64,000 nucleotides of DNA from Longimicrobium sp. (GTDB taxonomy: Bacteria; Gemmatimonadota; Gemmatimonadetes; Longimicrobiales; Longimicrobiaceae). The notes under the pieces were generated by a model that did no database searches, was not told where the DNA came from, and worked only from the letters and a program-made list of their open reading frames with translations. The stretch is from positions 62,001 to 126,000 of the forward strand of contig DASUYB010000105.1 of NCBI GenBank assembly GCA_036377595.1, written 5' to 3'. Shown piece by piece: positions 4,703 to 64,000 of this stretch (positions are counted from its first letter, which is position 1; each line of letters opens with the position of its first letter). The position numbers were made by a program, and so were the translations under genes.

Positions 4703-5860
4703 ATGGCGATACAACGATCGACCCTCGTCCCCGCCCTCGCGGCCGGGATGCTCGTCGCCGGGTGCGGAAAGGATGCGCGCCCGCCCGAGCGGCCGCGGGA
4801 GTTCACGCAGTACCAGGCGGTGCTCCGCGCCTCGAGCCCCGAACCGGTGGAGTTCACCGCGATCTCGGGGATCGACGTGGACTCGCGCGGCAACCTGTAC
4901 GTGGCCGACGCGGTGAACGTGGCGGTGCTCTCGCCCGACGCGCGGCTCCTCCGCCGCATCGGCCGCGAGGGGAAGGGCCCCGGCGAGTTCGAGCGCGTGA
5001 ACGTCATCCGCATTCTCGCCGGCGACAGCGTGTTCGCGTTCGACGCGGGGGCGGCGCGCGTGACCGTCTTCCCCCCGGCGTCCGACCGGGCGGCATACAC
5101 CACCGGGCTGAGCACGGCCGGCCTATTCTTCCCCTACTGGGTGCAGCCGGTCCGCGGCGGCGCGCTGCTGGCCCTCTTCCGCGCGGCGTACGGTGTGGGC
5201 CCGGACGGCGGAGAGCGCGGCGTTCGCAGGGAGACGATCCGGCTGCTGAACGCGGACGCCTCGCTGCGGCAGGACTCGGTGCTGAGCTTCCCCGAGTACG
5301 AGGCCGTGCCGATCCGGCAGGGCCCGGTGCAGGGCGCGCTCTTCGACCCGTTCGGCCGGCGGATGCTGGTGGCGCTCTCCGGCGACCGCGTCTACTCCGC
5401 GTGGAGCGGCGACTGGCGCGTGGAGATGCACTCCGTCACCGGCCGGTACCTCGGCACCATCCGCCCCGGCGCGCCGCCCGAGCCGCGCCCGATCACCCCG
5501 GCGGAGCTCGACAGCGTGGTGACGCTGATGATGGAGGGGCTCCCGTTCTCGCGGGCCACCGTGCAGAGGGCGATGGAGGGCACCGGCCGCCACACCTGGC
5601 CCGTGCTGCAGGACCTGGTGGTGGACGACGGAGGACGCATCTGGCTCGCCGCCACCGGGCAGCGCGGCGAGCCGGTGCACTGGATCGCCACGGACGAGCA
5701 GGGCCGCCGCGTGGGCGCGTTCGACCTGCCCGAGAGCGTGCGCATCCACCTCATCCGCGGCGACACGGCGTACGGCGTGTCGCTGGACGACGACGACGTT
5801 CCACACGTGGCGATCTACGACCTGAAGCCCGTCACTTCCCAATCACGGGGGCGGACATGA
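4703..5860 (+). CDS. Six-bladed beta-propeller lipoprotein
   Basis: This 385-residue protein has a lipoprotein signal (STLVPALAAGMLVAGC; lipobox VAGC), so the mature Cys is lipidated. The body repeats NHL/TolB-like blades: ISGIDVDSRGNLYVADAVN near residue 55, RLLRRIGREGKGPGEFERV near 85 and IRILAGDSVFAFDAG near 103, with a last blade around VVDDGGRIWLAAT. GKGPGEF is typical of six-bladed propeller lipoproteins in Bacteroidetes and Gemmatimonadota. GAGAGG is 6 bp before ATG 4703; a GTG at 4700 is less likely. The stop overlaps the next start (ATGA), so translation is coupled to the DsbA-like gene. It is probably a periplasmic or surface binding protein; the ligand is unknown, with the neighbouring peptides as candidates. 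Confidence 0.8.
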   Translation: MAIQRSTLVPALAAGMLVAGCGKDARPPERPREFTQYQAVLRASSPEPVEFTAISGIDVDSRGNLYVADAVNVAVLSPDARLLRRIGREGKGPGEFERVNVIRILAGDSVFAFDAGAARVTVFPPASDRAAYTTGLSTAGLFFPYWVQPVRGGALLALFRAAYGVGPDGGERGVRRETIRLLNADASLRQDSVLSFPEYEAVPIRQGPVQGALFDPFGRRMLVALSGDRVYSAWSGDWRVEMHSVTGRYLGTIRPGAPPEPRPITPAELDSVVTLMMEGLPFSRATVQRAMEGTGRHTWPVLQDLVVDDGGRIWLAATGQRGEPVHWIATDEQGRRVGAFDLPESVRIHLIRGDTAYGVSLDDDDVPHVAIYDLKPVTSQSRGRT

Positions 5861-46187: not shown

Positions 46188-46648
46188 TACGACCACGATT
46201 GTGGACTATCCGTACCCGTGGCGGCGGGAAGGGCGCGCTGCGCGGCCTGCTCGTCGCCCAGCATCTGCACCTGCCCGTTGAAGCGGCACCCCTCCTCCAG
46301 CACCAGGTGCTGCGCCCGCGCGGAGATCTGCCCCTCGATGCGCGCCGTGGCCTGCAGCTCCAGCCGGCTCTCGGCCACCACGGTGCCCTGCACGTGCCCG
46401 CCGATCACCGCGTCCTGCGTCAGCACGTCGCCCACCACCTCGCCTTCCTTGCCGATCACCACCGCCTTCCCGGCGCGGATCGTTCCCTCGATGCGCCCCT
46501 CCACCCGCACCGTCCCCTCCGTCACCAGGTCGCCGGTGATGCGCATCCCCGCGCCGATGATCGACATCGAGGCCTCGTTGGCCACGGCCCGCAGCACCGG
46601 GCTCCCCTTGTCTCGCGCCACGTCGTCTTTCCCTCGAAAGATCCCCAT
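46187..46648 (-). CDS. bacA: Bactofilin (polymer-forming cytoskeletal protein)
   Basis: The protein has 153 residues; GGAG lies 6 bp before ATG 46648. It starts MGIFRGKDD with a disordered tail, then a right-handed beta-helix core of about 100 residues: SIIGAGMRITGDLVTEGTVRVEGRIEGTIRAGKAVVIGKEGEVVGDVLTQDAVIGGHVQGTVVAESRLELQ, with glycine turns every 17-18 residues, the DUF583 pattern. It self-assembles into membrane-associated filaments that shape cells or organise ParAB/parS. Its position beside parAB and parS fits this second role, known in myxobacteria. Confidence 0.88.
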   Translation of the reverse strand: MGIFRGKDDVARDKGSPVLRAVANEASMSIIGAGMRITGDLVTEGTVRVEGRIEGTIRAGKAVVIGKEGEVVGDVLTQDAVIGGHVQGTVVAESRLELQATARIEGQISARAQHLVLEEGCRFNGQVQMLGDEQAAQRALPAATGTDSPQSWS

Positions 46649-60251: not shown

Positions 60252-61361
60252 ATGCGATTCACCATCACGCGTGAGAACCTCCAGCAGGGGCTGGGCGCGG
60301 TGGCCGGGAGCATCCCGACGCGCACCACGCTGCCGGTGCTCTCGAACATCCTGATCGAGGCCGAGGACGGCGCGGTGCGGATGAGCGGCACCGACCTCGA
60401 CACCGCGGTGAGCGTGCGCGTGCCGGCCGACGTGGCCGAGCCGGGCGCCATCACCGCGCCGGCCAAGAAGCTCCAGGAGATCGCCCGCGAGCTCCCGGGG
60501 GCCACGGAGATCAGCACGCAGGGCGACTCGATCTTCATCAGCAGCGGACGCAGCCGCTTCAAGCTGAACGGGCTGCCGAGAGACGAGTTCCCCGCCTTCC
60601 CCAGGGTGGACTTCACCGAGAGCTGGCGGGTGACGGGGGCCGACCTGCAGCGGCTGATCACCCACGTCTCGTTCGCGGCGTCGACCGAGGAGACGCGGCC
60701 GATCCTGAACGGCGTGCTCTGGCAGCTGCACGACGGCGAGATGCGGATGGTGGCCACGAACGGCCATCGCTTGGCGAAGATGACGCTGCCGGTCGAGGCC
60801 GGGTCCCCGGTGCCCGCGGCGGACCTGATCGTGCACCCGCGCGCGCTGGCGCAGGTGCAGCGCCTGTTCGCGTCCGACACGCCGGTGGAGGTGGCGCGCT
60901 CGGAGAACCACATCGGCTTCCGCAGCCCCGAGGTGCAGGTGTTCACGCGGCTGATCGAGGGGCCGTATCCCAACTACGAGCAGGTTATCCCCAAGGACAA
61001 CGACAAGACGATGGTGGCGGAGAAGGCGGCGCTGACGGCCGCCGTGCGCCGCATGGCCATCGTCGCCAGCGACCAGACGCACCGGATCCGGCTGTCGCTG
61101 GGCGGCGCGTCCCTCAAGTTCAGCGTGGAGAGTCCCGACCTGGGCGCCGCCAACGAGGAGCTGGAGGTGGAGTACGACGGCGATCCGCTGGAGATCGGCT
61201 TCAACGCGCAGTACCTCCTCGAGCTGTTGCGCTACATGCCGACGGACGAGGTGCGGATGACCTTCAAGGCGCCCGAGCGCGCGGCCACCATGCAGCCGCT
61301 GGGGAACGAAGACACGCCCGACTACCTCTGCCTGGTGATGCCGCTGCGTCTGCTGAGCTGA
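60252..61361 (+). CDS. dnaN: DNA polymerase III beta sliding clamp
   Basis: The protein has 369 residues, the clamp length with three similar domains. MRFTITRENLQQGLGAVAGSIPTRTTLPVLSNILIEA is the canonical start. EETRPILNGVLWQLHDGEMRMVATNGHRLAKM opens domain 2 and the C terminus is YLCLVMPLRLLS, which resembles the conserved clamp ending P-M-R. It encircles DNA and tethers polymerase III. recF and gyrB, usual next genes, do not follow; instead a Tn7-like element begins 16 bp after the stop codon. Confidence 0.96.
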   Translation: MRFTITRENLQQGLGAVAGSIPTRTTLPVLSNILIEAEDGAVRMSGTDLDTAVSVRVPADVAEPGAITAPAKKLQEIARELPGATEISTQGDSIFISSGRSRFKLNGLPRDEFPAFPRVDFTESWRVTGADLQRLITHVSFAASTEETRPILNGVLWQLHDGEMRMVATNGHRLAKMTLPVEAGSPVPAADLIVHPRALAQVQRLFASDTPVEVARSENHIGFRSPEVQVFTRLIEGPYPNYEQVIPKDNDKTMVAEKAALTAAVRRMAIVASDQTHRIRLSLGGASLKFSVESPDLGAANEELEVEYDGDPLEIGFNAQYLLELLRYMPTDEVRMTFKAPERAATMQPLGNEDTPDYLCLVMPLRLLS

Positions 61362-61377
61362 CGGCACGTCACCACGG

Positions 61378-61445
61378 TGTCCCAAACAAATAAGGTTGGT
61401 AACTGAAAAATAAAGTTGGTAACTCAGAAATAGAGTTGGTAACTC
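61378..61445. mobile_element. Tn7-like transposon end with three TnsB-type binding repeats
   Basis: The proposed terminus is TGT at 61378, 16 bp after the dnaN stop. Three direct repeats follow at exact 20-bp spacing: AAATAAGGTTGGTAACTG (61388), AAATAAAGTTGGTAACTC (61408) and AAATAGAGTTGGTAACTC (61428). Closely packed repeats inside a TGT end, next to tnsA, match the right end of Tn7. The 5 bp before the terminus, CACGG, would be the target duplication. The far end is outside the window. Confidence 0.75.
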
Positions 61446-61466
61446 GCCGGGGTGACTCCTCGACGA

Positions 61467-61508
61467 ACGGGTCCGCTCCCTTAGTGGGGATGGACCCGTG
61501 TCTTTTTG
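61467..61508 (+). terminator. Rho-independent terminator inside the element end
   Basis: ACGGGTCC and GGACCCGT form the outer stem, extended inward by CCC/GGG pairs with mismatches, followed by GTCTTTTT. It would stop read-through from dnaN into tnsA. If the terminus is right it belongs to the transposon. A weak promoter candidate follows (TTGGAT 61524, TATTCC 61546). Confidence 0.7.
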
Positions 61509-61664
61509 GCTCCACGCTTTGGGTTGGATCACACAATGGCCGAACTATTCCGGTCTTGGACCGAACCAGCTAAGTCCCGGTTCAGGTCCTTCTCGCTACG
61601 ATTCGAGAGGAGTCGCCCGTGCGACATCTCTCTCCTGGATCTGTGACGAGGCCGGACAGCGGCT

Positions 61665-62438
61665 ATGGACAAGTGGAACTCGGAACTCTGTGGGGCGGAT
61701 TACAGACCGGCGCTGACGGTTCGGAGCTTCGGCTCCCGCGGCAAATCCATCCGTATCGCCGGCCACACGACCGGTCGCGTCCACCACTTCTTCAGCATGG
61801 TGGAGGAATCAGCCTTCCTGCTCTACGACTGGCTTCCCGACGTATCCGATATCCGCGAGCAGTACGCGCTCGAGCTGGACGTCACCCAGGCGATCGCGTT
61901 CGAGCTCGGCATCGCCCATATCACCGACCGGAAGAGCGGCAAACCACATCCGGTCACCACTGACCTCGTCCTGAGTCGGCGCGTCGGGAGCGGCGAGGTC
62001 ACTCAGGTCCGGTCCTGCAAGCGGAGCGGTGATCTGGGCGGGAGCCGCACGCTTCAGAAGCTCGAGATCGAGAGGCAGTACTGGCTGCGGCGCGGGATCG
62101 AGTGGAAGCTAGTGACCGAGCGGGATCTCCCGGATCCGCTGATCAGGAATCTCCGATGGCTGCATCCCTTTGTTCAACCGTCCTCTGTGGGCATCGCGTC
62201 CGAACACCTCGCCTACCTCATCAAGAACCTACATCGCCGGATCCAGGACCAGCGCGAGAAATCTCTCGCCTACATCTGCACCGAGTGCGACAGGAGCCTC
62301 GGGACTGAGCCAGGTGGCCACCTCGCCCTCGCTCGCCACGCGGTGGCGAGCCGGCAGTGGCGTGTCGACCTACACGCCGAGATCGATCCCTCGCGGCCCC
62401 TCCTCCTTCGGGACGATACCTCGACGGAGGCATCATGA
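61665..62438 (+). CDS. tnsA: TnsA-like transposon endonuclease
   Basis: The protein has 257 residues. The N-terminal PD-(D/E)xK domain aligns with Tn7 TnsA: SMVEESAFLLYDWLPDVSDIREQYAL (catalytic Glu in VEE, about 47-48), HPVTTDLVLS (Asp100) and VRSCKRSGD (Lys119). The spacing is close to Tn7 Glu63, Asp114, Lys132. TnsA cuts the 5' ends so the element leaves the donor fully. The C-terminal domain, which in Tn7 contacts TnsC, here contains C205-x2-C208-x10-H219-x5-H225, a zinc-finger-like set that Tn7 TnsA is not known to have. ATG 61665 is the only start after an in-frame TGA at 61644. It overlaps tnsB (ATGA). Confidence 0.85.
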   Translation: MDKWNSELCGADYRPALTVRSFGSRGKSIRIAGHTTGRVHHFFSMVEESAFLLYDWLPDVSDIREQYALELDVTQAIAFELGIAHITDRKSGKPHPVTTDLVLSRRVGSGEVTQVRSCKRSGDLGGSRTLQKLEIERQYWLRRGIEWKLVTERDLPDPLIRNLRWLHPFVQPSSVGIASEHLAYLIKNLHRRIQDQREKSLAYICTECDRSLGTEPGGHLALARHAVASRQWRVDLHAEIDPSRPLLLRDDTSTEAS

Positions 62439-64000
62439 TGACGCTGCTGGTCAACCAGATACTGATGTGCACAGAGTCCGAGCGGGATCCGGTGCGCGTC
62501 CTCTGGCTTGAGCCGGCACATCTGGCGGCACGGCGGGTTGCGGTCATTCGGCTGGCCCGCGACGAGAGAATCCCGGAGTGGGAGGATCTGGAGGCACTCA
62601 CAGCGGCGGTCGACAACGGGGTTTACGTCATCGCCTCCGTCGACACTTTCGCGCCCCGAGCCTCGCTCGAGGAAGACCTCACGGAGGTAGAGCGGCGCGT
62701 GCGGGACGCCCGGTACGGGATCATCAGACCGCTCGTCGAGGACCCGGAGCAGAGCATCCTGTACGAGGACCTGCGTGGGCCGCTGATCAAGTCGGCCGCC
62801 GAGCAGAGCCACACGAGCAGGAAGAACGTCTACCATCTGCTGGGGCTCTATTGGCGGGGAGGACAGACGCCTAATGCTCTCGTTCCCGCTTACGTCAACT
62901 CCGGCAGGTCCGGTTCCCGGATCACCGCCGGCGCCGACACCACCACCAAACGCGGGCGGCCGAGAAAACCGGTTCCCGGCAAGGAGCACATCGTAGGAAT
63001 CAACGTCAATGAACGCACCCGGAAGCTGCTTCTGCTGGGCGCCAAGGAATTCCATGAGAAAGGCGGGATGCCGCCGAAGGAAGCGTACGACGCGACGATC
63101 AAGACCTACTTCGCCTGCGGCTACGAAGTTGCTGCCGATGGAACCCTCGAACCGATCATCCCAGCGGAGGACGACCGGCCGTCCTTCGGCCAGTTCTGTT
63201 ACCACTACGGCGCCGAGCGGGATAGCCGTCGCGCGCTCATCACGAGAAAGGGCCACAAGCGTTTCCTGCTGGAGAACCGGCCTGTCCTGGGCACCTCGTA
63301 CCACCTCGGACCGGCACCCGGCGCGCTGTACCAGATCGACTCGACCAGGGCCGACATCTCTCTCCGGAGCTCGCTCCGCGCTTCCAGGAAGATCGGGCGC
63401 CCCATCATCTACGTCGTGCGAGACCTGTTCAGCCGGATGATTGTGGGGTTTCACATCGCTCTCGAGGGTCCCAACTGGCTGGGGGTTCGTTCCGCGCTGC
63501 AGTCAGCGTTCATGGACAAGGTGGCCTTCTGCGCACGTTTTGGCAGGGTCATCGCGGCGGAGGACTGGCCCTGCTTGAATGTCCTTTGCGACGAAATCCT
63601 TGGTGATCGCGGACCAGCCGAGATCCTTAGCAAGAATGCCGATTTCCTGATCAACAGCTTTCGGGTTCGGGTGAGCAACGCTGCCCCGAGCCGGCCGGAC
63701 TGGAAAGCGGTGATCGAACGGGTCTTCCCGCTCTACCATCACGCGTATTCATGGGAGCCGGGCGCGGTTCATGGCCCTCGCGAACGGGGAGAGCCTGATC
63801 ACCGTCTCGACGCGGTGCACACCCTCTCCAGCTTTACGCGGCTCTTCCTCGAACTGACCCTCCAGTTCAACAACTGCACCTGGCTGGGCGCCTACGATCC
63901 CGACGCCGACGTGCTGCGCGACGAGGTTCCCTTGATTCCCCGGGAGCTGTGGAACTGGGGGATTCATAACCGGCAGGGGGCGCTCCGTCCCGTGAGCGAT
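62435..64000 (+). CDS. tnsB: TnsB-like DDE transposase, truncated by window edge
   Basis: 522 codons are visible with no stop, so the gene continues past base 64000. ATG 62435 overlaps the tnsA stop (ATGA), with GGAGG at 62426-62430 spaced 4 bp; a second ATG follows at once. A DNA-binding part at about 110-180 has HTSRKNVYHLLGLYWRGGQTPNALVPAY then TKRGRPRKP, typical of TnsB. The RNase H-like catalytic residues are Asp302 (LYQIDSTRADI), Asp391 (EILGDRGPAEI) and Glu428 (KAVIERVF); spacing of 89 and 37 is close to Tn7 TnsB. TnsB cuts 3' ends and joins them to target. tnsC and tniQ are expected to the right. Confidence 0.88.
   Translation, partial: MMTLLVNQILMCTESERDPVRVLWLEPAHLAARRVAVIRLARDERIPEWEDLEALTAAVDNGVYVIASVDTFAPRASLEEDLTEVERRVRDARYGIIRPLVEDPEQSILYEDLRGPLIKSAAEQSHTSRKNVYHLLGLYWRGGQTPNALVPAYVNSGRSGSRITAGADTTTKRGRPRKPVPGKEHIVGINVNERTRKLLLLGAKEFHEKGGMPPKEAYDATIKTYFACGYEVAADGTLEPIIPAEDDRPSFGQFCYHYGAERDSRRALITRKGHKRFLLENRPVLGTSYHLGPAPGALYQIDSTRADISLRSSLRASRKIGRPIIYVVRDLFSRMIVGFHIALEGPNWLGVRSALQSAFMDKVAFCARFGRVIAAEDWPCLNVLCDEILGDRGPAEILSKNADFLINSFRVRVSNAAPSRPDWKAVIERVFPLYHHAYSWEPGAVHGPRERGEPDHRLDAVHTLSSFTRLFLELTLQFNNCTWLGAYDPDADVLRDEVPLIPRELWNWGIHNRQGALRPVSD

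Follow-up and report, generated by a model that had tools for sequence, protein, structure and literature searches.

Does a Tn7-family transposon use dnaN, which encodes the DNA sliding clamp, as its attachment gene? The gene is universal and essential, usually present in one copy and located beside the origin, and Tn7-type homing relies on a TnsD protein that reads codons evolution cannot change. The question is raised by a 64,000-bp stretch of a Longimicrobium genome (the window; positions 62001-126000 of contig C105, genome G000). As first noticed in the initial annotation, the end of such an element starts in the window 16 bp after the dnaN stop codon (stop at 61361, TGT at 61378).

Gene set and extent of the element

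The Tn7-family element is 43,271 bp long and extends from window position 61378 to the window-equivalent position 104648 (C105:123378-166648). Coordinates on the onward contig stretch, L002, are converted to window positions by adding 58000 (Table 1). The tnsA end faces dnaN, and tnsA and then tnsB follow on the dnaN strand (61665-62438 and 62435 onward), as had been described; the tnsC, tnsD, cargo and mirrored far end that were predicted to lie beyond the window were all found there. The core genes are arranged in the order tnsA-tnsB-tnsC-tnsD, and the cargo behind them includes restriction/methylation, SIR2 and RES genes. The E/D/K catalytic residues of TnsA align with those of Tn7 TnsA, TnsB matches the Tn7 protein over its full length with the DDE residues aligned, and the CCCH zinc residues of TnsD (C124/C127/C152/H155) are invariant. 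No TniQ-family protein other than this TnsD was found in the genome; tnsB is also single-copy, and that copy adjoins the 3' side of dnaN, not glmS. The GC content is 64.0% inside the element versus 71.1% in the 20 kb beyond it, and the shift falls at the far end. A Pfam scan of the main cargo frames found no TnsE-type protein, and no Cas proteins were found among the scanned cargo proteins. Judged from its genes and termini, the element is a real, intact and complete Tn7-family transposon, and it is presumably still active.

Table 1. Features of the dnaN locus and of the element (window positions unless marked L002 or C105)
Feature	Position	Strand	Basis or remark
dnaN, proposed attachment gene, intact, 369 aa	60252..61361	+	Open frame; 83-92% identical orthologues in several congeneric/family genomes
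Proposed TnsD recognition site, dnaN codons for PDYLCLVMPLRL	61315..61350	+	Inferred by analogy with the 36-bp site of Tn7 (PMC2918618)
Direct repeat CCACGG, dnaN-side flank	61372..61377	.	Identical 6 bp past the far end, C105:166649-166654
In-window portion of the element	61378..64000	.	Rest runs to window-equivalent 104648 (C105:166648)
dnaN-proximal end, TGTCCCAAACAAATAA and three TnsB-type sites 20 bp apart	61378..61447	+	Mirrored at the far end
TnsB-type sites, dnaN-side end	61388-61404, 61408-61424, 61428-61444		Core [AG]GTTGGTAACT
Terminator-like hairpin with T-run inside the dnaN-side end	61484..61499	+	Consensus scan: 1 found versus 0.4 expected
tnsA, endonuclease, 257 aa	61665..62438	+	Pfam PF08722 2e-16, PF08721 5e-16; PDB 1f1z 4.6e-30
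tnsB, DDE transposase, 726 aa	62435..64000, on to window-equivalent 64615 (C105:126615)	+	PDB 7pik (Tn7 TnsB) 2.9e-78
tnsC, AAA+ regulator	L002 6612-8102		Pfam TniB/AAA_22; Tn7 TnsC structure 4e-86
tnsD, TniQ-type target selector	L002 8102-10003		PF15978 2.3e-43, PF06527 8.8e-18; matches Tn7 TnsD structure

The genes after tnsD code for an HTH-like protein, a D12 adenine methylase, an Eco57I-like methylase, an McrB-like AAA protein and an McrC protein. Further cargo comprises a DsbA-like protein with an outer-membrane barrel, a lamin-tail/metallo-beta-lactamase protein, TPR proteins and a SIR2-TPR protein, with a RES protein adjoining the far end. Defence-rich cargo is known for Tn7-like elements (PMC8649781), and this cargo fits. 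The DsbA/outer-membrane-protein pair, which is common to G006, was considered as the right flank and dropped: it lies inside the element, and the proteins are 46% and 30% identical. Between tnsD and the HTH-like gene (L002:9990-10125), a decayed copy of a piece of tnsB (87% over 55 bp) is found together with a decayed copy of what seems to be the start of the HTH-like gene, the trace of a duplication within the element. Cargo repeats, 77-81% identical over 130-440 bp, are also present (L002:17011-17451, L003:16154-16590 and L136 at about 5300-5460), and suggest that the cargo grew by duplication or nested acquisition.

Element ends and flanking repeat

Both termini have the form TGT-N13-[AG]GTTGGTAACT, with further inverted TnsB sites, and at either terminus the TGT is exactly 16 nt ahead of the first TnsB site. 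On the dnaN side, the sequence 16 bp past the stop codon is TGTCCCAAACAAATAAGGTTGGTAACT, and two further TnsB-type sites come after it at intervals of 20 bp. The three regularly spaced repeats noted before (61388-61444) hold up, and two instances of the double-repeat pattern are present in the window, against none in 100 shuffled windows. The far-end terminus reads AGTTACCAACTTTATTTCCCTGGCACA/CCACGGTGG, with mirrored TnsB sites at 46622, an exact match, and at 46553 and 46498 (continued L002 coordinates). It was located by scoring the remaining contig with a matrix built from the three left sites. Earlier searches, over 40 kb or through the whole genome with the fixed 20-bp double-repeat pattern, had found no mirrored end, because the far sites are spaced by 69 and 55 bp and lie about 43 kb from the dnaN end.

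A second copy of the flanking repeat had been anticipated, and CCACGG indeed abuts both ends; the repeat is 6 bp long, or possibly a 5-bp duplication if the register is shifted or one end is one base longer. The hairpin inside the dnaN-side end may stop dnaN transcripts from entering the element. A strong terminator-like hairpin, compared with which the one in the element end is weaker, is found about 120 bp beyond the far end, suggesting that the element may have separated dnaN from its own terminator. An E. coli plasmid element (L161) was tried as a control for the ends and dropped, since IS26 disrupts the region upstream of its tnsB.

The interval behind dnaN in related genomes

The closest relative, the congeneric genome G003 (DnaN identity 92%), lacks the element, and its copy of the gene block that flanks the far end starts 139 bp after dnaN. 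That dnaN and the far-flank gene are only 138 bp apart in this genome identifies the element as an insertion. Past the far end, the gene order of G000 matches that of G003 over about 17 kb, with 75-90% identity at the DNA level; from the far end to the SEC-C gene, G000 is about 800 bp longer than G003, and the intergenic DNA is unalignable at the base level. Tns proteins were found behind dnaN in none of 29 other relatives. The element, its two ends, the flanking repeat, the gene set, the orientation, the distance to dnaN and the uninterrupted congeneric neighbourhood are all established at the sequence level.

The suggestion that the element separates dnaN from recF/gyrB was not sustained. 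A SEC-C gene, the first of the host genes past the far end in G000, is found near dnaN in G003, G001 and G015, at a spacing that varies between relatives, and other genes are found there in other congeneric genomes. The GyrB signature GDSAGG, in a crude motif test, was absent from C105:62001-241715 and from the 20 kb around dnaN in six relatives. The gene content of the interval 3' of dnaN differs among G001, G003, G004, G006, G007 and G015, and because of this variation the interval resembles an insertion hotspot. In G006, a 95-bp copy of the dnaN 3' end, 93% identical, lies 1.4 kb behind dnaN (G006:C105:136065-136154; L039), and may be a scar left at dnaN by a past insertion or recombination. 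As a copy of an att site the fragment was rejected: it ends 16 nt before the stop and no element end adjoins it.

Geometry of the junction and comparison with known elements

The TnsD of Tn7 occupies the final 36 bp of glmS, and the transposon inserts about 25 bp downstream of them, with the tnsA end toward the 3' end of the essential gene (PMC2918618). The element at dnaN is alike: its tnsA end faces dnaN, the TGT is about 25 bp past the last codon of the conserved DnaN VMPLRL motif, and 303 bp separate the stop from the start of tnsA. In glmS-adjacent relatives tnsA starts 174-330 bp after the glmS stop and the TGT is, in most, 24-27 bp after it, so that the TGT at dnaN is 9 bp nearer the stop; in all of them the recognised coding end is on the tnsA side at such spacing. 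The initial annotation likened the arrangement to Tn7 at glmS and proposed dnaN as a homing site; the element, the orientation and the spacing support this in part, but no repeated use of dnaN was found (see below). It had also held the 3' end of dnaN to be conserved. At the DNA level this is only moderately so: in 30 relatives, the 36-bp window at Tn7-like spacing (61315-61350) has a mean column identity of 87% versus an average of 81%, and ranks 50 of 354 windows, above average and not exceptional.

The element also shares with Tn7 the four core genes in order, the TGT ends and subterminal TnsB sites whose sequences fall in nearly the same class. It differs in its location at dnaN rather than glmS, in that no TnsE was detected, in a TnsB only about 30% identical (phmmer alignment), and in a flanking repeat of 6 bp instead of 5. 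Other attachment genes of Tn7-like elements and CASTs are parE, tRNA genes and comM (PMC11406308, PMC10293859); the likeness here is that a changed target selector gives a new safe site beside a conserved gene. Unlike in CASTs, CRISPR-Cas genes were not seen among the scanned cargo proteins.

A related element is carried by the uncultured Gemmatimonadetes AVDCRST_MAG68 (G005), of the same genus, at loci L184 and L056. Its TnsB is 40-42% and its TnsD2 34% identical to those of the dnaN element, and its end layout (TGT, 16 nt, AGTCGG) is alike; glmS-adjacent relatives share the layout TGT-16-nt-AGTTGG. In contrast, the G005 element lies 24 bp after glmS, with a 5-bp repeat, ACAGA, and has two TnsD-type genes where the dnaN element has one. 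Since the flanks of L184 and L056 share ACAGA, the two loci probably represent opposite ends of a single glmS insertion that has two TnsD genes. One of these genes lies beside tnsA and the other near the far end (L184:7480-14450 and L056:4900-8160), and a Salinibacter element (L185) also has two TnsD-type genes. In a TnsD tree, the TnsD of the dnaN element is on a long branch and groups with G005 TnsD2 and the Salinibacter TnsD at 99% SH-aLRT. Thus, a same-genus relative is found at the standard glmS site while the G000 element is at dnaN.

Surveys for other insertions at dnaN

No preference for dnaN across genomes was detected. A TnsD alignment scan of genome contigs gave 80 TnsD-bearing loci, the closest TnsD being 34-35% identical; about 16 of these adjoin the 3' side of glmS and none has DnaN nearby. 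A single-protein TnsD scan of genome contigs and an alignment scan of viral contigs returned no relatives. Surveys with TnsA, covering Gemmatimonadota and the phyla of the Blastocatellia, Scytolyngbya, Anaerolineae and Sulfobacillus loci, produced, together with one further search, 39 further loci; 11 of them are behind glmS, and DnaN was found within about 1.5 kb upstream of tnsA at none. Among 395 sampled Gemmatimonadota genomes, the TnsA_C domain (PF08721) was matched in G000 only. In four Bacillota elements (L065, L081, L084 and L087), one shared protein of about 160 aa is encoded 320-380 bp upstream of tnsA; it may represent another recurrent attachment gene or an element-borne gene. We found no report of dnaN as a Tn7-like site in searches of the open literature, and dnaN is unnamed in the main text of PMC10293859 and PMC8649781. 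As no second dnaN insertion was found, a preference for dnaN rests on one insertion and its geometry.

Proposed homing to dnaN and other explanations

We consider it quite likely that the location of the element is best explained by TnsD-directed homing of an intact Tn7-family element to the 3' end of dnaN. An insertion near oriC that was untargeted, or directed by replication in a TnsE-like manner, could also have fallen just past the stop codon by chance; such a landing would agree with the single known insertion and with surveys that gave no second one, and, the site being next to the origin, a replication-linked event is conceivable. However, a full-length TnsD is present, no TnsE-type protein was seen in the scanned cargo frames, and both orientation and distance match TnsD homing. 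The chance that a random insertion falls 10-30 bp behind, and facing, a universal gene is about 0.0003 (some 200 such genes assumed), and by the same rough estimate about 0.009 for any gene. We regard this explanation as unlikely.

Conceivably, dnaN is only a bystander and TnsD reads some other sequence close to the junction, perhaps in the intergenic stretch or the right flank. Within the genus, the DNA behind dnaN varies and takes in other genes, and the 36-bp window is not the most conserved part of dnaN. Yet in every glmS-adjacent relative it is the tnsA side that carries the recognised coding end, at the same spacing, no tRNA or Rfam RNA that could serve as an alternative anchor was found near the junctions, and the length of the dnaN-to-SEC-C spacer is not conserved, all of which makes a bystander role for dnaN very improbable. 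That a rearrangement or misjoin brought the element end next to dnaN might be suspected in a draft of 208 contigs, but we give it hardly any credence: both ends, the matching CCACGG flanks and the collinear host genes are on one 241-kb contig, and the GC shift coincides with the far end.

We infer that TnsD, rather than another selector or chance, chose dnaN, which is a probable new attachment gene (n=1). Homing to dnaN could have proceeded as follows. An intact, cut-and-paste Tn7-family transposon would have entered the Gemmatimonadota chromosome from outside. Its TnsD, with a TniQ domain, a CCCH zinc site and a long C-terminal DNA-binding part, probably bound the dnaN 3' codons for YLCLVMPLRL and would then have recruited TnsC. 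Insertion by TnsA and TnsB would have followed about 25 bp past these codons and 16 bp past the dnaN stop, an outcome that would place the tnsA end toward dnaN and keep dnaN intact. On balance, we also lean towards a joint reading in which a diverged TnsD redirected a Gemmatimonadota lineage of Tn7-family elements from homing at glmS to homing at dnaN, which encodes the sliding clamp and lies next to the replication origin; the diverged TnsD lineage would be the one that supplies the second TnsD of the closest relatives.

If TnsD reads dnaN, the gene would be a new, naturally occurring safe site at which large cargo can land. It would also provide a second well-defined codon motif, besides that of glmS, from which to learn how TnsD chooses its DNA, and the glmS-located relative in the same genus would make a ready pair for domain comparison.
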